NCBI GenBank assembly: GCA_039630355.1
Contig: JBCNVF010000099.1
Coordinates: 1 to 38,348 of the forward strand
Source: Brevinematia bacterium
Lineage (GTDB): Bacteria; Spirochaetota; Brevinematia; DTOW01
Direction of reading: 5' to 3'
DNA length: 38,348 nt
Of the stretch, positions 1,907 to 33,483 are shown one piece after another. The notes beneath the pieces were generated by a model, which did not search any database, was not told the DNA's origin, and saw only the letters and a program-made list of their open reading frames with translations. Each line of letters starts with the position of its first letter. Position 1 is the stretch's first letter. The position numbers and the translations under genes were made by a program.

Positions 1907-3493
1907 CTATCCTCCTCTGAAATCTTCAACAACCTTAACTTTAATTCTAACCTTTGATATTATATTCTGGACCCTCTCTTTAAGTTCTTCAATAGCAGTA
2001 TGAGGAAGTAGGTGGTTACTATATCTACTCTCATTAACGATATCAGAGATAAATTCAAGGTGATTTGAAAACTCAGGTATGAAACTCTTCAGTCCAGTGC
2101 AGTACTCCTCTACACCCATAGATTTCTTGTAAGGGAAGATATAGGAGGTATAAGAGAGCATGTTGATAAAAATCTTGACTATTGTTTCTATCTCCTCAAT
2201 CTTCTCTTTAGAAACTTCCTCCTTGTGGATGTGCATTGAAGCCATTATCTCCTCTTCTATCTCCTTTGGTATATAAGCACGCTTTCTAACGAAAAACAGC
2301 CTTCTCAGAATATCAAAAAGCGATCTAAAGAAGTTTCCTACGAAGTAAGCAAAAATCTCATAAACTTTGACAAAAAAACCTAACACAGGAATGTCTTTTA
2401 CTTTGAAAACTTTCTTAAGTATAAACCCAATGATTATTATCGTAGCTAAGATCAGAAGAAGGTATTGGATAAAAAACAAGATGATAAGCCAATCTATTCC
2501 TCTCCTTACTTTTCTTTCAGGTTTAGGGGTAGCAACGAGATTTTCGTTAGTTATGTCTTTAGCCATAAGTCTCTCTCTTATTCTTTTGATCTCCTCTTCA
2601 CTTACTTTTCTCTCCTGAGAGATTATCTCATTTATTTTATCTCTTAAAGCTAGATTAGCTATTTTTGAAATTTCGCTAGCACCAAAATAGATTCCCACGG
2701 AGAGAATTAGAGAAACAAGTGTTATTAGGATGGTTGATACGAGCGAGAATTTGACCAGTTTATTCATGAAATCTATATTTCCGATATTAATCTTCTTGAT
2801 GATACTGTCTTCCAAAACGTAGGCTTTTGCTACGTTTAGCAACAGCATAATACAGGATACGACGAAAAGGATAGTATAGATTGAGGTCAGAAGGGTAGAT
2901 CCTGAGAGGATTAGTGCGATGGAGAAGAGAACTAACATGGATGAGAAAGTTATAACTAATGTTTTGATTGACTTTCTTATACTGTGTTTTTCAAAGTATT
3001 TCTCGTCAAATATCTCCTCAATGTTAATGCCACTAGCTATTGAATTAGCAGTAGTCGTGAGAATCTCGTATGGAAGATTTGTCAATCTCACGATGTGACC
3101 GTTAATGATTCTAAGAGCAATCCAGAAGGCTACCGAGATACCAAAGCTTATATCTAGAAACTCATTTATGTTCTTACCTAGGCTAAATCCTTTTAGGAAG
3201 ATAAAATTAAAGAGCAAAAGGAGAAATATTTCAAATATTGTTTCAATGATACTTCTTAAAAACTTACCACCTGCAAAAATAGAAGAATTGGTGTATATAG
3301 AGAAAGGGATGATGAACAAGAAATATATAGGATACCAGTTAAAATACGGTGAATTGTAATTACTAAGCACTTTAGCAACCTCAACAAGTATTCCGAAAAA
3401 GGAGAAGGAAATTAAAAAGGGTAGTAAAGCGTAGACTATGACTTTTTCTTCAAAAACAAGATCTAGAAGGCTCTTACTTTTTTGGTTGTTCAT
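1907..3493 (-). CDS. Multi-pass membrane protein, possible DUF4129-like C-terminus
   Basis: The function is not recognised. The 528-aa product has about eight hydrophobic segments, near residues 18-40, 52-70, 84-101, 112-130, 178-197, 200-222, 248-271 and 334-360. A charged stretch at about 280-332 (SQERKVSEEEIKRIRERL) lies between the last two. The cytosolic C-terminus (about 435-515) has a helical pattern with GVEEYCTGL and a later ESRYSNH. It resembles the DUF4129 tail found on transglutaminase-like membrane proteins (T-P-x-E-Y then Y-E-x-x-R-Y-G). That likeness is by eye only. There is no Shine-Dalgarno sequence. A perfect TATAAT (minus strand) lies 6 nt before the ATG, which suggests a leaderless mRNA. 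It is a single-gene unit between convergent glyS and divergent dnaE. Confidence 0.75.
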   Translation of the reverse strand: MNNQKSKSLLDLVFEEKVIVYALLPFLISFSFFGILVEVAKVLSNYNSPYFNWYPIYFLFIIPFSIYTNSSIFAGGKFLRSIIETIFEIFLLLLFNFIFLKGFSLGKNINEFLDISFGISVAFWIALRIINGHIVRLTNLPYEILTTTANSIASGINIEEIFDEKYFEKHSIRKSIKTLVITFSSMLVLFSIALILSGSTLLTSIYTILFVVSCIMLLLNVAKAYVLEDSIIKKINIGNIDFMNKLVKFSLVSTILITLVSLILSVGIYFGASEISKIANLALRDKINEIISQERKVSEEEIKRIRERLMAKDITNENLVATPKPERKVRRGIDWLIILFFIQYLLLILATIIIIGFILKKVFKVKDIPVLGFFVKVYEIFAYFVGNFFRSLFDILRRLFFVRKRAYIPKEIEEEIMASMHIHKEEVSKEKIEEIETIVKIFINMLSYTSYIFPYKKSMGVEEYCTGLKSFIPEFSNHLEFISDIVNESRYSNHLLPHTAIEELKERVQNIISKVRIKVKVVEDFRGG

Positions 3494-22199: not shown

Positions 22200-23354
22200 T
22201 TAGCTTAGTCCCAAACATTTCTTTATTTCTTTTACAGTTTTGTCTATAGCCCCAGGTTTGTATTCATTCTTTATCTTTTCAAGTTTATCCTTGGTTGTTT
22301 TAATGTAGTTCTCGTCCAACATGGTTTCAACAAGAGCTAATATGTTCCTAGGATTAACCTTGTTTTGAAGTAGTTCAGGGTAAATTTGTTCACCAAGGAG
22401 AATGTTAGGTAGAGATATAAACTTACTTCTTACAACTCTTTTTCCTATTTCAAATGTTAGCTTTGACACTTTGTACAAGACTATTGCTGGTTTCTCTAAA
22501 AGAGCGAGCTCCAGAGTTACTGTTCCGGATGTAACTATTGCTAAGTCACATATGTCATATAGCGCAAAGTCTTTGGGGTTATCAAATACCTTTACATACT
22601 CATCCAGTTTGAACTTCTGGATTTTGTTAATAATGTAATTTGTGAAAGCTCCGTGAGAAACAATAGTATAAAACTCAAATTCGTTGGCATTCAGGTTAGA
22701 TTTACCTGAAACTATGCATTTTACCGTTTCTAGCATTGGGGTAAACAACCTTCTCACTTCCTGTTTCCTACTTCCAGGGAGCAGTAGGATCTTTTTCTTG
22801 CCTTTGGTAAAGAAATCTAAGTATTTCTCCTTAGAGGAGTAGTTTTTAACTACCCTATCCACTATAGGGTTTCCTACGAAAACGGCATTATCGGAGACTT
22901 TGTGGTAGATTTCATAATCATCCTTGAAGGTGCATATTATTTTGTCGCAATACTTTGCTATCTTATACTTTACATTCTCATTCCACACTGATACCATTGG
23001 GGGGAAATAGTATACAATCTTTAGCCCCATTTTCTTACAAATCTTTGCAAACGGAATGTTGAATCCTTGGTTATCAACCAAGACTACTAGATTTGGGTGA
23101 TTTTTCTTAAGATAGTTGACTATCTTTCTTAGCAATATAAGTTTTGGGAAGATATACTTCAGCGATTCAGAAAACCCTACTGCGCTTGAAATACTTTCAT
23201 CCGTGCCAGTAATATTTATCATACCAGACTCAATCATTTTGGGACCACCAACGCCTGTACATCTTATACCAATCTTGACAAGTTCTTCTATTACTTCGCT
23301 TGCGCTAATATCCCCGGAGACTTCACCTGCTGAAAAGAATACCTCAATACTCAC
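22200..23354 (-). CDS. lpxB: Lipid-A-disaccharide synthase (divergent)
   Basis: LpxB joins UDP-diacylglucosamine and lipid X to form the lipid A disaccharide at the inner membrane. The 384-aa product has FFSAGEVSGDISASEVI at the N-terminus, GVGGPKM, VFVGNPIVDRV, LLPGSRKQEVRRLF, the sugar-nucleotide site VTSGTVTLELALLEKPAIVLYK (seen in two parts) and LPNILLGEQIYPELLQ. Two usually conserved stretches differ: D-x-P-D-F-N reads DNQGFN, and the Trp-rich VWAW stretch reads VSVWNEN. The GTG at 23354 gives the usual short N-terminus; a TTG at 23378 would add 8 residues. It may be a single-gene unit. Confidence 0.9.
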   Translation of the reverse strand: MSIEVFFSAGEVSGDISASEVIEELVKIGIRCTGVGGPKMIESGMINITGTDESISSAVGFSESLKYIFPKLILLRKIVNYLKKNHPNLVVLVDNQGFNIPFAKICKKMGLKIVYYFPPMVSVWNENVKYKIAKYCDKIICTFKDDYEIYHKVSDNAVFVGNPIVDRVVKNYSSKEKYLDFFTKGKKKILLLPGSRKQEVRRLFTPMLETVKCIVSGKSNLNANEFEFYTIVSHGAFTNYIINKIQKFKLDEYVKVFDNPKDFALYDICDLAIVTSGTVTLELALLEKPAIVLYKVSKLTFEIGKRVVRSKFISLPNILLGEQIYPELLQNKVNPRNILALVETMLDENYIKTTKDKLEKIKNEYKPGAIDKTVKEIKKCLGLS

Positions 23355-23407
23355 GAGTTTATTTTTTACGATGTCCAAACTATCTTTCCAGAAGTAACAC
23401 TATTCTT

Positions 23408-23610
23408 CAATAAATTCCAAAGTTTAATAGTTAGGTGTGGTTTTTCTTACTTTTCTTGCAGTTCCTGTTGTGAGTGAGTAAAACTGTTTTCTCAATGGAA
23501 GCTGGAGGCTTAGTATAGAGTAATACTGTAGGGACTAAACTTTATTGAAGGTTTTTCATTAACTTTTGGTAAGTCTAAAGTTTCAATCTCTAGCTTACCT
23601 ACTCATAGGT
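23408..23610 (+). repeat. Dispersed intergenic repeat, full but diverged copy
   Basis: It begins CAATAAATTCCAAAG, then TTAGGTGTGGTTTTTCTTAC, TTCTTGCAGTTCC and a diverged centre. It ends near AGCTTACCTACTCATAGG, matching the right end of the 16101 copy. The central hairpin is largely lost. It lies in the 495-bp gap between lpxB and tRNA-Ser. Confidence 0.65.
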
Positions 23611-23849
23611 GGTGGTGAGGTAGAGAATAAAGTGAGTAAGGAGTATGTAGACTTGAAAGAGTAATGCACTTGTTGCAAAAGGTGAGTTGGTACTTGAGTT
23701 GGAAAAAATAGGGTTATTGAAATTGAAAGTAGATTTTGAAATGAAGTGTTTTGTATAATATCTTGTGCTAAGGGCTTCAGAGCCTAAAGACAATTGAAGA
23801 ACTTTGGTGTAGAGTGGAAGAAGATGATAGATTAGGTTGCCATTTTCTT
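23611..23849. other. Leader region of tRNA-Ser
   Basis: No ORF is supported. A TATAAT lies at 23754-23759 without a convincing -35, and GGCT-TCAG-AGCC forms a short hairpin near 23771-23782. The tRNA promoter is probably here but cannot be fixed. Confidence 0.3.
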
Positions 23850-23937
23850 GGAGAGGTGCCAGAGCGGTCTATTGGGGCAGACTCGAAATCTGCTGTTCTC
23901 CTTCGGGGAACCGCGGGTTCAAATCCCGCCCTCTCCG
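23850..23937 (+). tRNA. tRNA-Ser (anticodon CGA)
   Basis: This is an 88-nt class II tRNA. The acceptor stem GGAGAGG pairs with CCTCTCC, with discriminator G. The anticodon loop is CTCGAAA in a GCAGA/TCTGC stem. The variable arm (GTTCTCCTTCGGGGAAC) is long and pairs. The T arm is GCGGG-TTCAAAT-CCCGC. It reads UCG codons. CCA is not encoded. argC starts 4 nt after the 3' end. Confidence 0.97.
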
Positions 23938-23941
23938 AAGT

Positions 23942-24970
23942 ATGCGAAAAGTTAAAGTAGGTATAATAGGGGCTAGCGGATATACTGGAGCCGAACTTTT
24001 AAGAATACTCCAAAGACATAAAATGGTGGAGATAGTGTTAATAACCTCAAGAACTCTAGCTGGGGAAAAGGTTAGTAAAGTGTTTCCCGAATTTCCTTCC
24101 CTAAACCTTAGGTTCTCATCCACTGAAGAGGTAGCAAACAACTTAAGTAACGATGTTGTTGATGTTGTCTTTCTAACATTACCTCATGAACCAGCAATAG
24201 GTTTGGTTCATACTTTTTACTCAAAGGGGATAAAGGTTGTGGATCTAAGTGCTTCCTACAGATTCAAGAAGAGGGAAGTTTTTGAGAATACTTATGAAAT
24301 TCATCATCCCTACCCTGAACTTCTACAAAAATCTGTGTGGGGCTTACCTGAACTTTTTAGAGAAACCATAAAAAACGCAGAAATCATTGGGAATCCAGGA
24401 TGTTATCCTACTTCCATAGCTATTGGATTGATACCCCTAAGGGAAATCAAGGAAAAAGTGGACCTTGAGAACATTATAATTGACTCTAAATCCGGAATCT
24501 CAGGAAAAGGGAGAAAGGTCTCGGAAGACTCAATATTTGTAGAGCATAACGAAAACTTTTACGCTTATGGCATACCAGCTCACAGGCATACACCGGAAAT
24601 TGAACAGTTTATAGAGTTTAACTTTGGAAAGAAGGTTAGTGTTGTTTTTGTTCCACATGTTGTTCCAATGGATAGAGGTATATTTTCTTCCATATATGTA
24701 TCTGCAGAAAACATATCGCAAAAAACCCTGGAAGAACTATACCATTCTTACTACGATAAGGAGCCTTTTATATATGTTATAGACACCATCCCACAAACAA
24801 AGTGGATCTCTCATACCAACAACTGCATGGTTTTTGTAAAATATCTTGAAAGGAAAAGTAAAATTGTAATCTTCTCTGCGATTGATAACTTAGTAAAGGG
24901 AGCTTCGGGCCAAGCAGTGCAGAATATGAACATTATGTTTGGTATTGATGAAACAGAGGGGTTGGTTTGA
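23942..24970 (+). CDS. argC: N-acetyl-gamma-glutamyl-phosphate reductase
   Basis: ArgC reduces N-acetylglutamyl phosphate to the semialdehyde in arginine synthesis. The 342-aa product starts MRKVKVGIIGASGYTGAELL, the NADP-binding loop. The catalytic Cys is in GNPGCYPTSIAIGL (about residue 152), and AHRHTPEIEQF carries the active-site His. VFVPHVVPMDRGI and DNLVKGASGQAVQNMN are also typical. The frame extends upstream through tRNA-Ser, but that part is the tRNA. The ATG at 23942 is 4 nt after the tRNA 3' end and no Shine-Dalgarno sequence is possible after tRNA cleavage. argJ lies about 4 kb away. Confidence 0.96.
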   Translation: MRKVKVGIIGASGYTGAELLRILQRHKMVEIVLITSRTLAGEKVSKVFPEFPSLNLRFSSTEEVANNLSNDVVDVVFLTLPHEPAIGLVHTFYSKGIKVVDLSASYRFKKREVFENTYEIHHPYPELLQKSVWGLPELFRETIKNAEIIGNPGCYPTSIAIGLIPLREIKEKVDLENIIIDSKSGISGKGRKVSEDSIFVEHNENFYAYGIPAHRHTPEIEQFIEFNFGKKVSVVFVPHVVPMDRGIFSSIYVSAENISQKTLEELYHSYYDKEPFIYVIDTIPQTKWISHTNNCMVFVKYLERKSKIVIFSAIDNLVKGASGQAVQNMNIMFGIDETEGLV

Positions 24971-25030
24971 GAGCACAAATTCTTTAATCTGACAGTTGGA
25001 CTATAATCACAGAACTTTACTTCATACCAA

Positions 25031-25120
25031 GCATCTTAGGTACTTATCAAGAGGAGTATTTACCCAGTCCCGATAGGGACTGCGAGAGTAGTGAAAAGAA
25101 AGACTACATCATGATTATTG
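25031..25120 (-). repeat. Dispersed intergenic repeat, copy with perfect hairpin
   Basis: This reverse-oriented copy lies in the argC/miaB gap. It contains GGAGTATTTACC, then the perfect hairpin CAGTCCC-GATA-GGGACTG (25065-25082) and GCGAGAGTAG. The left end is reduced to ATTATTGG near 25113-25120. The segment CTTAGGTACTTATCAAGAGG matches the flank of the same core at 16170-16200 in reverse. Confidence 0.7.
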
Positions 25121-25130
25121 GGTACAGAAG

Positions 25131-25159
25131 TAGAAAATTTATCTACGGTGTCTTATAAT
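25131..25159 (+). promoter_or_regulatory. miaB promoter
   Basis: TAGAAA (25131-25136), a 17-nt spacer and a perfect TATAAT (25154-25159) lie 15 nt before the ATG. The mRNA leader would be only 8-9 nt, with no Shine-Dalgarno sequence. Confidence 0.5.
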
Positions 25160-25174
25160 TAAAACTCAGGCACT

Positions 25175-26470
25175 ATGAAGTTTTTCATTGAAACATACGG
25201 ATGTCAAATGAATCTCTCCGATTCGTTTGAACTTAAAAAGCTACTGGAGGACAACGGACTGGAAGAATCACAGAGTGAAGAAGAAGCTGATGCGATAATA
25301 GTAAATACCTGTAGTGTGAGAAACACTGCAGAAGAGAGAGTATTTGGAAGGCTAGGATTCCTTAAAGGGCTGAAGAACAAAAAGCCAAATCTAAAAATAT
25401 ACGTGATTGGGTGTATGGCTCAGTTGTGGGGGAAAGAGTTGTTTAGCAAAGCTCCACACATAGACGGTGTTTTCGGAACATACAATCGTAGCAAAGTAGT
25501 TCAACACCTTCTTGCTAAAGACAGTTATGTCGTTGATGTTAGTATGGATAGATACGAATTTCTTCCACCTTCCGTTGATTACCAATTTCCGTTTAAGGCT
25601 TCCGTAACGGTGATTCACGGCTGTAATCATGCTTGCACTTACTGTGTAGTTCCCAAAACTAGAGGCAGGGAGGTAAGCAGACCGTTAAACGAAATAGTTG
25701 AAAATATAAAGAAATTGGTTGATGAAGGAGTAGTTGATGTCCAGCTTCTTGGTCAAAATATAAACTCCTATGGCAGAGATATTGGCACAAGTTTTAAAGA
25801 ACTCTTGAAGGAGGTAAATAAAATAGAAGGACTAAGGAGAATAAGCTTTTTAACCTCTCATCCAGTAAACTTTACCGAGGATCTTATAGATACTATCTCC
25901 GAACTTGATAAGGTGTATAGATATTTCCATCTGCCAGTCCAGAGTGGTTCCAACAAGATTCTTAAACTTATGAGGAGAGGGTATACTCGCGAAAAATACC
26001 TAAAGTTGATTGAATATCTTAGAAAAAAAATACCCGATGCATCAGTTTCAACAGATATAATTGTTGGTTTCCCTTATGAAACCGAAGAGGATTTTAACTC
26101 TACTTTGGATCTAGTTAAAGAGGTAAGATTTGACTTTGCGTATATGTTTGTATTTAACCCTAGAAGAGGCACAATATCAGCGGAAATGCAAGAACAGGTT
26201 CCAGAAGAAATAAAAACTGAGAGGATACAGAAACTTGTAGCACTACAACATTCCATAAGCAAAGAAAATAACCTAAAGGATATTGGGAAGGAATTTGAGA
26301 TATTGGTTGAAGAAAAAGGGAGATACAAAGGGCAACTTTTGGGTAGAACTAGATACAACAAAATCGTTGCATTTGAGGGGAGAGAGAACCTCATAGGTAA
26401 GTTTATTAAGGTTAGAGTAGAAAGACTTTCGGGAAATACTTTAATAGGTAAAGTTGTAGTAAAATGCTAA
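25175..26470 (+). CDS. miaB: tRNA-2-methylthio-N6-dimethylallyladenosine synthase
   Basis: MiaB is a radical-SAM methylthiotransferase that adds a 2-methylthio group to i6A37 of tRNAs reading UNN codons. The 431-aa product has the N-terminal UPF0004 domain with its three cluster cysteines (ETYGCQMNLSDS, VNTCSVRNTAEER, VIGCMAQLWG). The radical-SAM CxxxCxxC follows in HGCNHACTYCVVPKTRGRE, then LLGQNINSYG and FHLPVQSGSNKILKLMRRGY. It ends in a TRAM RNA-binding domain (about 368-431). SVRNTAEERVFGRLG and the length favour MiaB over MtaB or RimO. The i6A-forming miaA is not in the window. Confidence 0.95.
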   Translation: MKFFIETYGCQMNLSDSFELKKLLEDNGLEESQSEEEADAIIVNTCSVRNTAEERVFGRLGFLKGLKNKKPNLKIYVIGCMAQLWGKELFSKAPHIDGVFGTYNRSKVVQHLLAKDSYVVDVSMDRYEFLPPSVDYQFPFKASVTVIHGCNHACTYCVVPKTRGREVSRPLNEIVENIKKLVDEGVVDVQLLGQNINSYGRDIGTSFKELLKEVNKIEGLRRISFLTSHPVNFTEDLIDTISELDKVYRYFHLPVQSGSNKILKLMRRGYTREKYLKLIEYLRKKIPDASVSTDIIVGFPYETEEDFNSTLDLVKEVRFDFAYMFVFNPRRGTISAEMQEQVPEEIKTERIQKLVALQHSISKENNLKDIGKEFEILVEEKGRYKGQLLGRTRYNKIVAFEGRENLIGKFIKVRVERLSGNTLIGKVVVKC

Positions 26471-26493
26471 CACTTTATCCGTTCTTAACTAAA

Positions 26494-26805
26494 CTATGGA
26501 GAAATTGTCTCTTTGTTTAGCCATTCCAGATACTCTCGGTTTACATTCTCAACGTTTAGTGCAACTATTTCAGGAACTGTGTAGGGATGATTTGATTTTA
26601 TGAAATCACGGAGCTTTTCAAAAAGTTCTTTTTTGGTCTTCATTACTAGTAGATCCTCACTGTCTCTTTCTATTTTACCTTGCCAGTGATAAATACTTTG
26701 AACATTTTGTATGATATTGACACAAGCTACTAGCCTTGCTTCAATAACTTTTTCGGCAAGTTCTTTTCCTTTACCCGATGGAATTGTGCATATAACTACT
26801 ATCAT
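26494..26805 (-). CDS. cutA: Divalent-cation tolerance protein CutA
   Basis: This small trimeric cytoplasmic CutA1-family protein is 103 aa and ferredoxin-like. It is linked to copper and divalent-cation tolerance, though its exact role is debated. Family motifs run throughout: MIVVICTIPSGKGKELAEKV, ARLVACVNIIQNVQSIYHWQ, GKIERDSEDLLVMKTKK and HPYTVPEIVALNVENVN, ending YLEWLNKET. The ATG at 26805 gives the standard start; the open frame runs 12 codons further up but into the promoter. There is no Shine-Dalgarno sequence; the -10 box is 6 nt from the ATG. It converges on miaB. Confidence 0.95.
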   Translation of the reverse strand: MIVVICTIPSGKGKELAEKVIEARLVACVNIIQNVQSIYHWQGKIERDSEDLLVMKTKKELFEKLRDFIKSNHPYTVPEIVALNVENVNREYLEWLNKETISP

Positions 26806-26811
26806 AAGAGT

Positions 26812-26841
26812 ATGATAAAAATTTCTTTTTGGAAAAATCAA
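26812..26841 (-). promoter_or_regulatory. cutA promoter (leaderless type)
   Basis: On the minus strand TTGATT (26836-26841), an 18-nt spacer and TATCAT (26812-26817) are followed by 6 nt and the ATG. Confidence 0.65.
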
Positions 26842-26859
26842 TTAACAAATTGCGATTCC

Positions 26860-27037
26860 CAATAAATTCCAGGGTTTAACAATTAGGTGTGGTTTTTGCA
26901 GTCTCTATTGAAACTGAGTGATACACTTTTTGATAAATGCCTAAAGAGAAATAATGTAAAGTCAAGTTTTGTGATTGATGAAAACCAAAAAGTTTAGAGT
27001 CTTTGCTTACTTGCCTAATGGAAATTGGAGTTTTTGG
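26860..27037 (+). repeat. Dispersed intergenic repeat, near-complete copy
   Basis: This copy of about 178 bp starts CAATAAATTCCAGGG, then AACAATTAGGTGTGG. It has the hairpin CAGTCTC-TATT-GAAACTG (26899-26916), GATAAATGCCTAAAGAG, and TGATGAAAACCAAAAAGTTT, shared with the 16101 copy. It ends GCTTACTTGCCTAATGGAAA. It fills most of the cutA/tRNA-Gly gap. Confidence 0.72.
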
Positions 27038-27043
27038 TTCTAG

Positions 27044-27073
27044 TTGCAAAAAAACATCTTGGACAATTACAAT
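27044..27073 (+). promoter_or_regulatory. tRNA-Gly(GCC) promoter
   Basis: TTGCAA (27044-27049), an 18-nt spacer and TACAAT (27068-27073) lie 28 nt before the tRNA. The same TTGCAA-N18 layout precedes the other tRNA-Gly gene. Confidence 0.55.
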
Positions 27074-27101
27074 ATATAAGGCTGAAGATTGAGAATAGTT
27101 T

Positions 27102-27174
27102 GCGGGAATAGCTCAGTTGGTAGAGCGCTTCCTTGCCAAGGAAGAGGTCGCGGGGTCAAGTCCCGTTTCCCGCT
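27102..27174 (+). tRNA. tRNA-Gly (anticodon GCC), G54 variant
   Basis: The tRNA is 73 nt. The acceptor stem GCGGGAA pairs with TTCCCGC, with discriminator T. The D loop AGCTCAGTTGGTAGAGC is normal. The anticodon loop is TTGCCAA in a CTTCC/GGAAG stem. The T arm is GCGGG-GTCAAGT-CCCGT, so position 54 is G instead of the near-universal T. CCA is not encoded. A DUF2905 gene starts 5 nt after the 3' end. Confidence 0.93.
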
Positions 27175-27179
27175 CATTG

Positions 27180-27401
27180 ATGGCAGAGATAGGTAAATTC
27201 TTCCTTATCCTAGGTTTGGCTATTGCCTTTGTAGGAATCCTTTTTATGCTCCTGCCTAAAATTGATTTCAAGGGGCTTCCAGGAGATATTTTCATAAAAA
27301 AAGATAACTTTGTGTTTTTCTTCCCCATTGTCACAAGTATCGTATTGAGTATTTTACTAAGCATAGTATTGACCGTAATATTCTCTCTGTTTAGAAAGTA
27401 A
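27180..27401 (+). CDS. DUF2905-family small membrane protein
   Basis: This 73-aa protein has two transmembrane segments (about residues 6-26 and 45-69). The family hallmark GLPGDIFIKKDNFVFFFP lies between them. DUF2905 has no established function and is widespread in diverse bacteria, often near translation or recombination genes. The longer frame from 27117 runs through the tRNA-Gly and is not real. The ATG at 27180 is 5 nt after the tRNA 3' end, so the two share a transcript and no Shine-Dalgarno sequence would survive tRNA cleavage. Confidence 0.88.
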   Translation: MAEIGKFFLILGLAIAFVGILFMLLPKIDFKGLPGDIFIKKDNFVFFFPIVTSIVLSILLSIVLTVIFSLFRK

Positions 27402-27540
27402 CCTCTAAAGGTCAGAATCATTCTTTCAATAAAGCATCATATTACCTTGTAGAAAGACTTAAAGATCAAAAAAGTATGAAAATCTGTTACTGTTTTCAAG
27501 TCTTTCCTATAACAAGCTTGGAAGCAGAAACCTAGAAAAA

Positions 27541-27924
27541 TTAGAGTTTCTCCTTGACATTAGTCTGTACTTTTGGTTCTTTAGCGGGCATGGAACAGTT
27601 ACCGTTGAAAATACAACCAGATTCAATGTAAAGGTCTGGGGTCTTTATATCACCCGTTAGTTTAGCACCACTTATCATTTCTAGCTTTTCCGTAGCCTCG
27701 ACATTTCCAACTATCTCCCCGTAATTGGTAATAGTAGCAGCCTTTATTTGAGCTCTTACTAGAGCTTTAGGTCCTACTACAAGATGACCTGTTGCATCAA
27801 TTTCTCCTTCAAACACGCCCTTTATCATCAAGGAAGTTGAAAACTTCAAAGTACCCTTGAAAGATATATCTTCAGCAAGAACAGTATTAATGTTTTTTTC
27901 ATCAATGATATGTTCTTTTGGCAT
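27541..27924 (-). CDS. Bactofilin-family cytoskeletal protein
   Basis: This polymer-forming bactofilin (DUF583) is 127 aa. These proteins form a beta-helical core, assemble into filaments and help set cell shape or localise wall enzymes. The core here runs from about residue 14 to 105, with short repeated turns: GTLKFSTSLMIKGVFEGEID, HLVVGPKALVRAQIKA, NYGEIVGNVEATEKLEM and GAKLTGDIKTPDLYIESG. The termini are short and charged, as usual. The ATG at 27924 has GGAGG 5 nt upstream; a TTG at 27936 lies in that Shine-Dalgarno region. No M23 peptidase partner is adjacent. Confidence 0.93.
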   Translation of the reverse strand: MPKEHIIDEKNINTVLAEDISFKGTLKFSTSLMIKGVFEGEIDATGHLVVGPKALVRAQIKAATITNYGEIVGNVEATEKLEMISGAKLTGDIKTPDLYIESGCIFNGNCSMPAKEPKVQTNVKEKL

Positions 27925-28018
27925 ATTAACCTCCAATTAATTTAAAAGTCTTAGTTACCTTTTCATTATAGAGGATAAGTCAATTCTATTTCAAATTTTT
28001 TTTGGGACTGAAGTTTAC

Positions 28019-28240
28019 TCAAAAGTTTGGTATTTTTTTGTGGAAGAGTATTCTGAATACCTCGTGTTTGTAATTCATCCAAGCAATTCTCAAATCTCTC
28101 CTTCCTAACCCTAGCATACCTGCCTTACCTAGAAGGTAGAAGAATATAAAAGGATAACTTCCGCTATCTTTTTCCTGAGCTTGGATGGAAGGTCAAGTAG
28201 AAAGTTTTTTATAGTGATTTATAGTTTTTCTGTGATTCAT
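28019..28240 (-). pseudogene. Decayed small ORF behind a strong Shine-Dalgarno sequence
   Basis: AAAGGAGGT lies 4 nt before an ATG at 28240. The frame reads MNHRKTINHYKKLST and then TGA (28193). Slipping at the six-A run after codon 10 opens another frame that reads FLLDLPSKLRKKIAEVILLY and stops at 28129. The original frame beyond the TGA also reads protein-like (FYLLGKAGMLGLGRRDLRIA, then WMNYKHEVFRILFHKK) up to a stop at 28019. Coding-like stretches in alternating frames suggest a frameshifted remnant, with programmed frameshifting a remote alternative. No family is recognised. Confidence 0.4.
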
Positions 28241-28244
28241 ATAT

Positions 28245-28286
28245 ACCTCCTTTTGCCTTTATTTTACGAGGCAAGAGGAGGTTTTT
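28245..28286 (+). terminator. Strong hairpin with T-run; also buries a Shine-Dalgarno sequence
   Basis: ACCTCCTTTTGCCT (28245-28258) pairs with AGGCAAGAGGAGGT (28269-28282), with one G-T pair and a 10-nt loop. TTTT follows on the plus strand, so it can act as a rho-independent terminator ahead of pdxJ. On the minus strand the same stem contains the Shine-Dalgarno sequence of the decayed ORF at 28240. Confidence 0.65.
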
Positions 28287-28387
28287 CACTTTAATTTTTA
28301 TCAAATTCTCCTGCAAACTTCAGTAAACTATATTATGAATCTCCCCACAAAAAAATTTTAGACTTTATTGATAGAGCATAATACAAC

Positions 28388-28417
28388 TTGATAAAACCAC
28401 TTTGCTACATAAATAAT
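28388..28417 (+). promoter_or_regulatory. pdxJ promoter
   Basis: TTGATA (28388-28393), an 18-nt spacer and AATAAT (28412-28417) lie 8 nt before the GTG start. A TAAATA at 28410 (16-nt spacer) is an alternative -10. Confidence 0.45.
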
Positions 28418-28425
28418 CTATTTTA

Positions 28426-29181
28426 GTGAAGGTGCTAAAAAAGAAACTAGGAGTTAACATAGACCATGTTGCGACCTTAAGACAAGCCAGAAGGGGTGTG
28501 GAACCTGACCCAATATCTGTAATACCTATAGTAGAGCTTGCAGGTGCTGATAGTATAACGATGCATCTTAGAGAAGATAGGAGACATATTCAGGATAGGG
28601 ATGTTTTTCTTGCAAAGCAGATAATAAAAACCTCCCTTAATTTGGAGATGTCAATAAACGAGGAAATAGTAAAAATAGCACTTGATCTTGTGCCTAATGA
28701 GGTTTGCATAGTACCTGAACGTAGAGAAGAGATAACAACCGAGGGGGGACTGGACATAAAGCCGATTAAATCCAGACTTGAAGATGTCATAAGATCTCTT
28801 AGGAGTAAGGGAGTTGTTGTAAGTTTATTTGTTGAGCCTGAGAAAGAAGCAATTAGTTTATCTAAAGAGGTTGGGGCCGATTATATAGAGATTCACACGG
28901 GTAGGTATGCCAATTCTTCTGGCGATGTGATGCTTCTTGAGTTGAATAAGATAAGGGAAATGTCAGCATATGCTAGGTCTATAGGTTTAGGAGTAAACGC
29001 AGGACATGGACTAAACTACAAGAATGCTTACGACATTGCTACGATCCCTGAGATAGAAACCCTAAACATAGGGCATAGTATAATCAGTAGAGCAATATTT
29101 GTTGGAATAAGGCAAGCAGTTGTTGAGATGAAGGATATCATCCTCCGTGGCTACTACGACCTAATAGCCGCAAGGGATTAA
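28426..29181 (+). CDS. pdxJ: Pyridoxine 5'-phosphate synthase
   Basis: PdxJ condenses 1-deoxyxylulose 5-phosphate with 3-amino-2-oxopropyl phosphate to give pyridoxine 5'-phosphate, as a TIM-barrel octamer. The 251-aa product has LGVNIDHVATLRQARRG, ITMHLREDRRHIQDRD, NLEMSINEE, EVCIVPERREEITTEGG and GLGVNAGHGLNYKN, which carry the catalytic His and Glu residues. The start is GTG at 28426 with no Shine-Dalgarno sequence, 8-10 nt after the -10 box. The stop is 1 nt from the end of convergent argJ. Confidence 0.97.
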   Translation: MKVLKKKLGVNIDHVATLRQARRGVEPDPISVIPIVELAGADSITMHLREDRRHIQDRDVFLAKQIIKTSLNLEMSINEEIVKIALDLVPNEVCIVPERREEITTEGGLDIKPIKSRLEDVIRSLRSKGVVVSLFVEPEKEAISLSKEVGADYIEIHTGRYANSSGDVMLLELNKIREMSAYARSIGLGVNAGHGLNYKNAYDIATIPEIETLNIGHSIISRAIFVGIRQAVVEMKDIILRGYYDLIAARD

Positions 29182-29182
29182 C

Positions 29183-30379
29183 CTAAGTGTATTCTGCGTT
29201 TATCTTTACGTACTCATAACTCAGATCAGTAGTGAATAAGAAGTATTTTCTTTTTCCTGTGCCTAGGTCAACAAGTATATTGATGTTTTTGCCCTTTAAA
29301 ACGTCATTGCTAGGATATCCTAGGTAATTCCCCCTATCAAAGATAACCTTATCGTTTACTTTCACAACCAGTTTGTTTGGTTTTACCTGCTCACCTGCTG
29401 AACCAATTGCTGCTATAATTCTACCCCAGTTTGGATTTTCACCAAATAGCATAGTTTTTACTAAAAGAGAATTACCAATTTTTCTTGCTATACTCTGAGC
29501 TACTTTCTCCCTAGAAGCGTTTATCACTTCTATTTTCACAACTTTTGTAACCCCCTCACCATCCTCAACTATCATCATTGCCAAATCATTCAGGACTTCT
29601 CTCAGATAGTCTGTAAATAACTCAAAGTTTCTATCCTCTTTTTCTACAGAAAACTCCGACATTCCATTAGCTAGGACAAGAACAGTATCATTTGGGCTCA
29701 TGTCTCCGTCAACAGAAATCCTATTAAAGGTTTCATCTACCGCCTTTTTCAAAGCCTTTTGTAGCAATTCACAGGTTATTTTAGCATCTGTTGTAACGAA
29801 ACACAGCATTGTAGCCATCATAGGGTTTATCATTCCACTTCCTTTGCCTATCGCTCCGATTTTGAAGGTTTCAAGACCAGAGATATGTTGGATTGCTGTT
29901 TCCTTTATTTTGGTATCGGTAGTCATTATTCCTTCTGCGGAGTTGCTTGAGGAACTTTCATGTTTTATCCTTTCACATACTTTTGCAATGCCATATTCAA
30001 CAACATCCATAGGCAAAGGTTTTCCAATAATGCCAGTTGAGGCAACGAGAACGGAATTTTCACTAAAGCCCAATTTTTCTTCAACGAGCCTAGCCATCCT
30101 CCTAGCATCCTCTATCCCCCTCTCACCTGTTAAGCAATTTGCGTTACCACTGTTTGCTATTATGCCTCTTATTCCGGTAGGGTTCTTTTTCAAAATCTCC
30201 ATACTCACCAATACTGATGCAGACTTAAAGACATTTGTTGTAAAGACACCAGCAGAAACAGACGGAACTTCGGAAATTATAAGTGAGATGTCTTTTCTAC
30301 CTGATAGTTTTATTCCTCCGGCTACACCATTAGCTCTAAATCCTCTAGGAGCAGTAACACCTCCAGAAATTCTGCGCAT
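29183..30379 (-). CDS. argJ: Bifunctional glutamate N-acetyltransferase
   Basis: ArgJ transfers the acetyl group from N-acetylornithine to glutamate and, in bifunctional forms, also uses acetyl-CoA. It thereby makes the arginine pathway cyclic. The 398-aa proenzyme self-cleaves before the nucleophilic Thr in KGSGMINPMMATMLCFVTTD (about residues 179-198). Other marks are GGVTAPRGFRANGVAGGIK at the N-terminus, NSGNANCLTGERG, SVDGDMSPNDTVLVLANG and GENPNWGRIIAAIGSAG. GGAGGT lies 6 nt before the ATG. It cooperates with argC but is in a separate unit. Whether it is bifunctional cannot be told from sequence alone. Confidence 0.96.
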   Translation of the reverse strand: MRRISGGVTAPRGFRANGVAGGIKLSGRKDISLIISEVPSVSAGVFTTNVFKSASVLVSMEILKKNPTGIRGIIANSGNANCLTGERGIEDARRMARLVEEKLGFSENSVLVASTGIIGKPLPMDVVEYGIAKVCERIKHESSSSNSAEGIMTTDTKIKETAIQHISGLETFKIGAIGKGSGMINPMMATMLCFVTTDAKITCELLQKALKKAVDETFNRISVDGDMSPNDTVLVLANGMSEFSVEKEDRNFELFTDYLREVLNDLAMMIVEDGEGVTKVVKIEVINASREKVAQSIARKIGNSLLVKTMLFGENPNWGRIIAAIGSAGEQVKPNKLVVKVNDKVIFDRGNYLGYPSNDVLKGKNINILVDLGTGKRKYFLFTTDLSYEYVKINAEYT

Positions 30380-30531
30380 AAGCCACCTCCCAAAAATAAT
30401 TGTTTAAATTCTCGCCTCCCCGCTAATCATCAAATCCTAACACCACAAAACTTCAAAGCATTCCACTTTACAAGTATAAAACTTTACTTTGATGCTCTCA
30501 AATTACGATAATTATAGAAGTTGGAGCTAAG

Positions 30532-31551
30532 ATGAAGCTAAGCATAACTCCAGATGATTTGAAAACTGATCTAAAGGCTGTAGGAAGATTCTTCTACATC
30601 TTCATAGTTTCACTAACCATTTTTCTCGTCTTCTCACTTCTATACGGAGTGGAAAATGTCATAAAGATAACTTACATCTTAACAAAGCCTAATCTTCTAG
30701 ATGTAGTTTCAATATACTTCTTCAGCAACCTCATTGCTATTCTACCGTTCGTAACAATATTCTCCCTCGCATATTTTGCATACAAACTTGATTATAGATC
30801 CTTATCCGACATAGTAAGACTATCTGTAATACTAGGGGTCTTCATCTACATTTTATTCTTCGTAGCGATTCTGTTAACCCCACGAGTAGATGCTCTAGTC
30901 TTAAGTGCCTACAAAAATTTCTCTACCTCTCCTTCAACTCCTAAAAATTTGTTAACAAAATCTAAGATTCACTTTGTCGGAAATGAGAAAGTTGTGCCTA
31001 TTGTAATTCGGAAAAATTCCTTTGATGCAGTTGTTGTAAGAAAAGGTAAAACCCAAATTTACCACAACCTTAGAATAGTACCCTACGATAACGGAATAAG
31101 AATAAAAAGTGGTAAAACTCAAATTCTTGACATTCCTTACGAAAAAGTTATTCCTCCAAGCTTTGGTAAACTCTACGAGAAGATCTACAGAGGTTTTATG
31201 AAAATCGCAACACAATTTCCACTTACACGATACGTGGAAAAATTCTCATTCACCAGCTTTCTAAACCTTCTTCTTTATGTAGAAGCTCTGACGATAGGAA
31301 TGGTATATGTGATCTGGCTATTCAGAGACTACCCCACAACAAAAATATTGATCTTATCACTTATAGTTGCAGTGCTTGGAGTCACAGTTATGGGATTTCT
31401 GGGAAGTGTCTTTGAATTTATGAAATTCTCATCATTACTTGAAGGGATAAAAGACATAATCTCCGGATTAATGGCCATTACATTAGCTATACTAGTGGTT
31501 ATGGGAGCATACAAAATGGACCAGATACTGAAAGGTAGAGTAGGAGGATAA
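30532..31551 (+). CDS. Membrane protein with LptF/LptG-like topology
   Basis: This 339-aa protein is not recognised by strong motifs. It has six hydrophobic helices arranged three plus three (about residues 19-38, 58-84, 97-115, then 241-264, 270-294, 307-327). About 125 soluble, beta-rich residues separate the two halves. LptF and LptG, the LPS-export permeases, have this layout with a periplasmic jellyroll in the middle. After TM3 it reads LLTPRVDALV, comparable to the Pro-containing turn of that family. GGAG lies 5 nt before the ATG. The next gene, of similar layout, starts 1 nt after its stop. The LptF/G assignment is inference from topology and pairing. Confidence 0.5.
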   Translation: MKLSITPDDLKTDLKAVGRFFYIFIVSLTIFLVFSLLYGVENVIKITYILTKPNLLDVVSIYFFSNLIAILPFVTIFSLAYFAYKLDYRSLSDIVRLSVILGVFIYILFFVAILLTPRVDALVLSAYKNFSTSPSTPKNLLTKSKIHFVGNEKVVPIVIRKNSFDAVVVRKGKTQIYHNLRIVPYDNGIRIKSGKTQILDIPYEKVIPPSFGKLYEKIYRGFMKIATQFPLTRYVEKFSFTSFLNLLLYVEALTIGMVYVIWLFRDYPTTKILILSLIVAVLGVTVMGFLGSVFEFMKFSSLLEGIKDIISGLMAITLAILVVMGAYKMDQILKGRVGG

Positions 31552-31552
31552 A

Positions 31553-32431
31553 ATGTCTGGTTACGTAAGTATTAGACTACTTCTGTTCTTCATGTTGATA
31601 TTAACTGCACTTATCCTAATCTCGTACTTCATCTCTGGAGACGTAGATACAAATAAGTTCATAAGCTTTCTGAAAATATTTCTTTTTGAGCTACCAGTAG
31701 CAAGTACTTCAGCAATAGTAATAGTCTATACCTTTTTCTTAACTGAAAAAACCCTTACATCACTCCCATCAAGAAATCCAACCCTAGCGTTCATACCATC
31801 TGTATTCTTCACCCTAACAGTTGTTTTTCTCATCATCCTACTACAAGAGATAGTATTACCCTCTCTTGCTAAACAAAAGCTCACCACTGAAGGTGTAAAA
31901 AATGTTGTATTTGCTATTGACAAAAATAGGTATCTAGTTGTTGACAACGTTAAGTTTGACAACAATAAAAATGTTTACATTCTCAGTGGTGTTGATACCG
32001 TCAGTAAAGTAAACTTTTCAGTCATAAAAAGCTATAACAAGATAATCTACGATCCGTCAAAAAACACCCTAGCAATGGAGGGGAAAAAGTTGGATCTGAA
32101 TGGAAACTTAGAGAAAGTTTTGATATTCTTTGTTGACAGAAACTACTTTTTCAGTATATGGGAGTTTAACAAAGTAAAAGACTCTTTCTTTGTGTTTGAC
32201 CTAAAAACCTCGTTCTTAAACTTCATAATGTATGAAAAAATATTCATTCCTGTTATCTCGTTTGTAACGATGATGTTTGCTATAACACTTGGCTGGAAAT
32301 GGAGAATGAACAAAAGCACAAAACTTATGCCTATTTACATAATTGTTGGCTCAGTTGTGATACCAATAGCAGTTAAAATGGTATACTACCTTTCAATAAG
32401 AACTTTTGAGTTTCTAGTCTTCCCTTTCTGA
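31553..32431 (+). CDS. Membrane protein, second LptF/LptG-like partner
   Basis: This 292-aa protein is translationally coupled to the preceding gene: GGAGG lies in the upstream gene's last codons and the ATG is 2 nt after its stop codon ends. Helices are near 8-27, 43-63 and 79-102. A soluble beta-rich region covers about 105-225, and helices follow near 229-247 and 258-280 with a short hydrophobic end. TM3 ends LLQEIVLPSLAKQ, similar to the N-x-x-V-x-P turn seen in LptF/LptG. It is shorter than typical (about 350-400 aa). An alternative is an unrelated pair of envelope proteins. Confidence 0.48.
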   Translation: MSGYVSIRLLLFFMLILTALILISYFISGDVDTNKFISFLKIFLFELPVASTSAIVIVYTFFLTEKTLTSLPSRNPTLAFIPSVFFTLTVVFLIILLQEIVLPSLAKQKLTTEGVKNVVFAIDKNRYLVVDNVKFDNNKNVYILSGVDTVSKVNFSVIKSYNKIIYDPSKNTLAMEGKKLDLNGNLEKVLIFFVDRNYFFSIWEFNKVKDSFFVFDLKTSFLNFIMYEKIFIPVISFVTMMFAITLGWKWRMNKSTKLMPIYIIVGSVVIPIAVKMVYYLSIRTFEFLVFPF

Positions 32432-32511
32432 AACAGAAACTATCTTCCACTCTTTACCTAAGAAACTACGAATGGACAAATTCCAATCACAAACTTAGAA
32501 TTTTCACAAAT

Positions 32512-32541
32512 TTGCAAAATTCTGACTTTAATGAACATAAT
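32512..32541 (+). promoter_or_regulatory. tRNA-Gly(TCC) promoter
   Basis: TTGCAA (32512-32517), an 18-nt spacer and CATAAT (32536-32541) lie 19 nt before the tRNA. An inverted repeat AGAATTTT/AAAATTCT (32497-32523) overlaps the -35. Confidence 0.5.
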
Positions 32542-32560
32542 TATTTTGCCTAAGTACCGT

Positions 32561-32633
32561 GCGGGAATAGCTCAGTTGGTAGAGCATCGGCCTTCCAAGC
32601 CGAGGGTCGCGGGTTCGAGTCCCGTTTCCCGCT
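32561..32633 (+). tRNA. tRNA-Gly (anticodon TCC)
   Basis: The tRNA is 73 nt. The acceptor GCGGGAA pairs with TTCCCGC, with discriminator T. The anticodon loop is CTTCCAA in a TCGGC/GCCGA stem. The T arm is GCGGG-TTCGAGT-CCCGT with the normal T54. It reads GGA/GGG codons. CCA is not encoded. A secreted-protein gene begins 34 nt downstream on the same strand. Confidence 0.97.
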
Positions 32634-32667
32634 CATCTTTCTCTCTCATATTCCGACTATTCTATAG

Positions 32668-33483
32668 ATGAAAAACCTAAAGCATTCATTTCTTATTTCA
32701 CTTCTACTAATAATGTTTACATATTCCGCTTTTTGTGATGTTTTAACTTTCATATCATCAAATACTTACATAAACTGGACAAAAGGTATGATAGTCTCAG
32801 AGTTTTCGGGACACAGCGAATTCCTCATAGGTGAGGACTTTCATAGGAAAATACTCGATACCAAATATCTAGTCAAGAAAAAAATAATCTCAGAACTGTT
32901 ATTTCTAATCAAAAGCATTCCATTTGACGAAAATAGAAAAGTTGAAGACTTGTTTCTACTTTTCCCCGAAAAGAGAAAAGCACTTGTCTCACTTCTTGAA
33001 GCAAATGAAGTAAAAGACTTTAGATACTTTGGTGGCAAGGTCCTAGCAAGATACACTGTAGGAATATATGGTCAAAATGGCATCTTTAACATTCTCAGAC
33101 TACCATCTATCCCTAGAGACTATAGAGAGTTTATAAATCAAGCCGAACCTAAGGAATATACCGGATTACTGATATCCACGAAAAACCAAAAATTCAATAT
33201 CTCTCTTTCTGTTAAGATACTTTCTAAATCTGGTAAACTGGTCTACAGCTACGCAGATTATAGGGGTAAAAGCAACTACATCCACTTTTTCAGATCACTA
33301 AAAGATGCTATTGATAGCGGAATATTCGGAAACAATATTATATATACCACACCCTTGAAAATAGAAGGAGAAAATCTCACAGATATAGTGCTTGACGACT
33401 CTGTAGTAGAAAAAATTCTCACAACTAGTGAAAACCACAACATATTCTTTGACGGAAAGGTAGGAATAATACTAGGAAACTAA
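32668..33483 (+). CDS. Secreted protein, possibly LPP20/FlgT-like
   Basis: This 271-aa exported protein has a signal peptide (MKNLKHSFLISLLLIMFTYS, likely cut after SAFC-D or nearby). The function is not firmly recognised. A central segment, KEYTGLLISTKNQKF followed by LSVKILSKSGKLVYSY, resembles a motif I recall from LPP20/FlgT-like envelope proteins (Y-T-G-L-I-I-D-A-R-G ... P-R-I-L-D-E-D-G-x-x-V-Y). Here it is degenerate. No flagellar gene is nearby. The gene follows tRNA-Gly(TCC) by 34 nt and probably shares its transcript. Its stop overlaps the end of convergent nfi by 4 nt. Confidence 0.7.
   Translation: MKNLKHSFLISLLLIMFTYSAFCDVLTFISSNTYINWTKGMIVSEFSGHSEFLIGEDFHRKILDTKYLVKKKIISELLFLIKSIPFDENRKVEDLFLLFPEKRKALVSLLEANEVKDFRYFGGKVLARYTVGIYGQNGIFNILRLPSIPRDYREFINQAEPKEYTGLLISTKNQKFNISLSVKILSKSGKLVYSYADYRGKSNYIHFFRSLKDAIDSGIFGNNIIYTTPLKIEGENLTDIVLDDSVVEKILTTSENHNIFFDGKVGIILGN

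Follow-up and report, generated by a model that had tools for sequence, protein, structure and literature searches.

The 38,348-nucleotide (nt) contig JBCNVF010000099.1 of a Brevinematia bacterium (GCA_039630355.1), hereafter the window, carries three transfer RNA (tRNA) genes on the plus strand, two of which almost abut a protein gene on the same strand. tRNA-Ser(CGA) (23850..23937; Rfam RF00005, 54.6 bits; mature form without CCA, discriminator G73) is followed by the spacer AAGT (23938..23941) and by argC (23942..24970), which encodes a 342-amino-acid (aa) N-acetyl-gamma-glutamyl-phosphate reductase (TIGR01850, 386.7 bits; cut-off 233.6). tRNA-Gly(GCC) (27102..27174; Rfam RF00005, 69.3 bits; mature form without CCA, discriminator T73) is followed by CATTG (27175..27179) and by a DUF2905 gene (27180..27401) encoding a 73-aa membrane protein (PF11146, 65.2 bits; cut-off 22.2). 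Once the tRNAs were removed, the two spacers would be putative leaders of 4 and 5 nt. The original prediction placed argC and the DUF2905 gene 4 and 5 nt after tRNAs that do not encode CCA; the Rfam tRNA ends, the ATG codons at 23942 and 27180 and the sequence after the discriminators all agree with this, and the tRNA ends given by ARAGORN were one base off from those of Rfam. CCA is also absent after the third tRNA, tRNA-Gly(TCC) (32561..32633, plus strand; Rfam). The distance of 34 nt predicted between this tRNA and the next gene (ATG at 32668) was correct, but the junction falls outside the short-gap pattern. The 271-aa product of that gene matched no family in a Pfam search. A structured leader was rejected: an Rfam scan of positions 23000-33000 returned tRNA as the sole matching family, and the stretches running from tRNA into gene folded no better than many shuffled sequences (z = -0.4 and -1.4).

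Conservation of the spacing in relatives, a check proposed with the original prediction, was examined in five genomes from two genera: the window's genome (G000; 1.75 Mb, 126 contigs, 95.9% complete), three genomes of the same genus (G001-G003) and one of the same family (G004; 82% complete). argC followed tRNA-Ser(CGA) in all four family genomes where argC was found (G000, G002, G003 and G004), with gaps of 4, 2, 1 and 1 nt (AAGT, AT, A and A). The gap between tRNA-Gly(GCC) and the DUF2905 gene was 5, 8, 5 and 4 nt in G000, G001, G002 and G003, and the spacers in the last three were CATCCGTG, CATAG and CATA. Further pairings behaved in the same way: tRNA-Met and yggS (3, 3 and 2 nt in G000, G002 and G003), tRNA-Val(CAC) and a V-ATPase-G-like gene (1, 1, 2, 1 and 1 nt in G000-G004), the tRNA-Gln-tRNA-Glu(CTC) pair and an open reading frame (ORF) of 178-206 aa (1 nt each in G000, G002, G003 and G004), and tRNA-Leu(CAG) and a SpoIIE phosphatase gene (2, 10, 8 and 1 nt in G001-G004). 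Two single cases had a gap of 0 nt, a 420-aa ORF in G000 and alkaline phosphatase in G003. At orthologous junctions the short gap was kept and the spacer letters varied. The pattern search of the sister genomes covered gaps of 0-6 nt only, so that the full gap distribution there lies beyond its reach. Near-leaderless tRNA-gene junctions thus form a class that is conserved across two genera and is wider than the two cases first noticed. As ArgC is only 68-72% identical between these family genomes, conservation of the short gaps is the strongest evidence that the pattern is beyond chance. Outside the family, a tRNA lay directly upstream of argC in 0 of the 26 loci fetched; a control set of 80 argC loci from distant bacteria contained just 12 tRNAs, too few for a background estimate.

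We then surveyed tRNA-to-gene junctions in G000, G002 and G003, gathered tRNA by tRNA, which gave 48 junctions; at some long junctions the start codon was picked by hand among candidates. The junctions separated into two classes. Seventeen of the 48 had a gap of 0-5 nt, and all 17 began with ATG and none had a Shine-Dalgarno sequence (SD). A gap of at least 11 nt was found in 28, of which 20 carried a strong SD, and the remaining three (7-10 nt) were all without an SD. Further short junctions exist in G001 and G004. The SD contrast between the short and long classes (0/17 vs 20/28) was significant by Fisher's test (p = 1e-6), although it is partly built in because a gap of 5 nt has no room for an SD. 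The telling point is that the SD-less genes sit directly at tRNA ends. Seven of about 20 junction families in the three genomes had a gap of 5 nt or less (p ~0.009 vs uniform placement over 0-46 nt); for the 17 of 48 individual junctions the corresponding value was p = 5e-5, with orthologues not independent. The long junctions are also compact, and in several of them the SD starts 1-3 nt after the tRNA. The long class can be read as ordinary SD translation, because the anti-SD is intact in G001 and G002; 16S was looked for in G000 and not found. Short tRNA junctions are a minority in these genomes, where other genes use SDs or leaderless-type promoters. Only one surveyed tRNA had CCA after the discriminator (G000, C92:15253-15335), and its orthologues lacked it.

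One could suppose that the annotated starts are wrong, with translation beginning at a downstream start served by an internal SD, or with the frame continuing through the tRNA to give a fusion. The reading frames through the tRNAs of G000 are open, and in G000 an in-frame TTG lies ahead of the DUF2905 ATG. However, the family matches of ArgC, YggS and the V-ATPase-G-like proteins begin at residues 3-11; in the window, ArgC aligns to TIGR01850 from residue 4 and the DUF2905 protein to PF11146 from residue 5. The distance from the start of tRNA-Ser to the argC ATG was 92, 90, 90 and 91 nt in the four genomes, that is, three different frames, and a stop codon immediately precedes the orthologous DUF2905 ATG in G002. 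A translated fusion was rejected on these two grounds, and we consider misplaced starts in general to be highly improbable.

Alternatively, argC, the DUF2905 gene and the others might be transcribed from promoters of their own that lie within the tRNA genes or overlap them, giving ordinary or leaderless primary transcripts. Leaderless-type promoters are indeed numerous in these genomes. Nevertheless, at the junctions tested with gaps of 0-5 nt, and before the DUF2905 gene of G001 (8 nt), the 40 nt preceding the ATG contained no hexamer with one mismatch or fewer to TATAAT. Such promoters have their -10 box 12-14 nt before the ATG, and at the short junctions this position is taken by acceptor-stem sequence that differs from TATAAT in 3-6 letters. 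Internal promoters were therefore rejected at the tested short junctions, and as a general account we rate them as quite unlikely. The SpoIIE junctions of G002 and G003 do contain a TATAAT-like hexamer within the spacer, too near the ATG for a -10 role. Upstream of the tRNAs, in turn, many carry a -10-like hexamer within 60 nt; TATAAT lies 20-21 nt upstream of the orthologous tRNA-Ser in G002 and G004 and 17-20 nt upstream of the orthologous tRNA-Gly(GCC) in G001-G003. In the window, a promoter-like TTGCAA-18-TACAAT (27044..27073, plus strand; consensus match only) lies 5' of tRNA-Gly(GCC). Judged from sequence, co-transcription with the tRNA would be the simplest source of these mRNAs.

The capacity of these genomes for leaderless expression was assessed by applying a crude ORF caller to about 676 kb of G000 and G002, which gave 543 ORFs. 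TATAAT-like hexamers peaked 12-15 nt before the first ATG (61 vs 29 expected, p = 1e-7). An SD was absent in all 43 listed ORFs with a box at -14 to -12, where the box itself partly occupies the place of the SD, and in genes with an SD the TATAAT-like peak lay at -28 to -26. In the window, a -10 box 12-15 nt before the ATG, without an SD, was seen at minus-strand genes with their 5' side at 3493, 21538, 26841 and 37312. This promoter class suggests many promoter-made leaderless mRNAs in the family, and because of the excess of such boxes leaderless mRNAs are probably native to these genomes. Leptospira interrogans is placed in the same phylum as the window's genome. About 440 leaderless mRNAs have been mapped in that species (PMC5243855).

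Taken together, the lack of an SD, the lack of a -10 box near the ATG, the conserved spacing and a genome that seems to use leaderless mRNAs are best explained by co-transcription of tRNA and mRNA followed by tRNA 3'-end cleavage, which would leave a near-leaderless mRNA; we hold this explanation to be probable, though well short of certain. In this model, a set of protein genes would be transcribed together with a tRNA, on its 3' side, and an endonuclease would cut at or beside the discriminator base, yielding an mRNA with 0-5 nt before the AUG. Removal of the tRNA would be required anyway so that CCA can be added, and a domain of the CCA-adding type (PF01743) was present in G000, G002 and G003; it was not found in the 82%-complete G004. 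With a folded tRNA directly against the start codon and no SD, the uncut transcript should translate poorly, and the cut one could be read by the leaderless route. How much protein is made from argC, the DUF2905 gene, yggS, the V-ATPase-G-like gene and other such genes would in that case hinge on transcription of the tRNA and maturation of its 3' end, and a regulatory use of this coupling is conceivable. We infer both the processing at tRNA ends and the leaderless translation from the arrangement of the genes. The original prediction of near-leaderless mRNAs made by tRNA 3' processing therefore fits as a model, but RNase Z as the enzyme is not supported.

Several results weigh against this explanation. 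RNase Z had been expected to cut after the discriminator, yet no protein of G000-G004 passed TIGR02651, and TIGR02650 had no match in the family. The nearest candidate is an MBL-fold (metallo-beta-lactamase) ORF of 316 aa, which scored 81 bits against the TIGR02651 cut-off of 293. With no protein of the family meeting an RNase Z model, cleavage need not fall exactly at the discriminator. In addition, no -10-like hexamer lies within 60 nt upstream of tRNA-Ser in G000; a TATAAT 90 nt upstream (23754..23759, plus strand) is a possible -10 box of the tRNA-Ser-argC unit, a weak assignment. The same 60-nt search was empty for the argC unit and yggS of G003, the V-ATPase-G-like gene of G004 and the tRNA-Gln-Glu units, and some of the tRNA units without such a hexamer may belong to upstream operons. 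Finally, genome compaction could bring start codons near tRNAs without any selected function.

Of 60 genomes of the phylum, only three had a protein above the TIGR02651 cut-off; most had GVRGS-type MBL proteins only. The RNase Z candidates of the family, which are GVRGSIPVPG-type MBL and PhnP-like proteins, were rejected as falling below the curated cut-offs, and stronger-looking matches in sister families were rejected as being of the same GVRGS type. The cutter may be a divergent MBL enzyme or another nuclease. In P. acnes, which has no obvious tRNase Z, cuts at the 3' sides of tRNAs have been mapped (PMC3848588). We also noted a 724-aa ORF in G000 (C91, L327) with an MBL-like part and a part that by eye resembles a cyclic-nucleotide-binding domain.

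As no RNase Z was recognised and cleavage itself was deduced, the genes might instead be translated from an uncut tRNA-mRNA precursor, or from a transcript with a partial tRNA leader, for example via ribosomal protein S1 or an unfolded tRNA. On the uncut precursor, ribosomes would need to initiate at an AUG only 0-5 nt behind a folded tRNA and without help from an SD; none of the 17 short junctions had one in the 20 nt preceding the ATG. A leader that contains a tRNA also needs no clustering of starts at 0-5 nt, where they were found, with just three of the 48 at 6-10 nt. Moreover, tRNA function and CCA addition need a free tRNA 3' end. We regard translation of the uncut precursor as unlikely.

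A further possibility accepts co-transcription and cleavage and differs in function only: in a compact genome that tolerates leaderless mRNAs, genes could slide to tRNA ends with no regulatory meaning. The products (ArgC, YggS, the V-ATPase-G-like protein, DUF2905 and SpoIIE phosphatase) have no common theme, and tRNA identity is unrelated to product, as in tRNA-Ser with argC; for this reason compaction alone may be the whole story, and the long junctions are compact as well. On the other hand, identical pairings with short gaps were kept across two genera. The arguments leave us evenly divided on whether the coupling is incidental. The broadest claim, that a bacterial family recurrently makes leaderless mRNAs by tRNA excision without a canonical RNase Z and thereby licenses expression of argC, the V-ATPase-G-like gene, yggS and the SpoIIE-type phosphatase, is put forward tentatively and falls somewhat short of being probable.

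The arrangement resembles the tRNA punctuation of animal mitochondria, in which tRNAs abut protein genes with at most a few nt between them and CCA is not encoded. There, tRNA excision sets mRNA 5' ends with few or no leader bases, CCA is added later and the start codon is read at the 5' end. Mitochondria cut whole-genome polycistrons throughout, whereas here a minority of genes is concerned; each belongs to a separate tRNA unit, and the genome makes use of SDs as well. Mitochondria also use the RNase Z/ELAC family, of which no member in this bacterial family passes the RNase Z models; ELAC2 is the mitochondrial tRNA 3' enzyme (PMC11996679). The leaderless mRNAs of Leptospira, mycobacteria and Cutibacterium acnes likewise have the AUG at most 10 nt from the 5' end and no SD. 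Their 5' ends are mapped primary starts, whereas here the end is deduced from the tRNA boundary and would come from tRNA processing, with a monophosphate. In Escherichia coli thrU-tufB and metY-nusA, a tRNA heads a transcript that runs into a protein gene, as proposed here, but there the mRNA retains a leader that includes a ribosome-binding site, for which there is no room at the short junctions. MazF of E. coli, as cited in PMC3848588, cuts leaderless mRNAs from longer transcripts. It is a stress toxin that cuts at ACA and leaves a 5'-hydroxyl, whereas the cut considered here would be constitutive tRNA maturation.

Within a partial full-text collection on leaderless mRNAs, tRNA processing and tRNA-mRNA co-transcription, judged mostly by titles, no title described a bacterial case. 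If correct, the proposed mechanism would extend the mitochondrial tRNA punctuation model to bacteria. Processed leaderless mRNAs would then have a natural origin, and protein synthesis would be linked to tRNA maturation, a link that may be incidental. As RNase Z mostly goes unrecognised in this phylum, the mechanism would also point to a non-canonical endonuclease for tRNA 3' ends, and gene-calling programs that look for an SD might put such starts in the wrong place.

Beyond the family, junctions met incidentally in a sister family (f2) had leaders of about 20 nt or longer, several with an SD. In G015 (family f3), a SpoIIE-type ORF lies 3 nt after tRNA-Ser(CGA); loci with SpoIIE-type phosphatases near tRNAs were L284, L219, L238, L282 and L248, from four family genomes and G015. 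In G033, a distant genome of the phylum, a DUF2905 gene lies 1 nt after tRNA-Leu(CAG) (L154, 1404-1501), a different tRNA from that in the window, and this junction is probably an independent case. Lastly, the same tRNA pair occurs near two contig ends of G000 (C46:233-384 and C49:4-155) with similar flanks, reflecting either a recent duplication or an assembly break.

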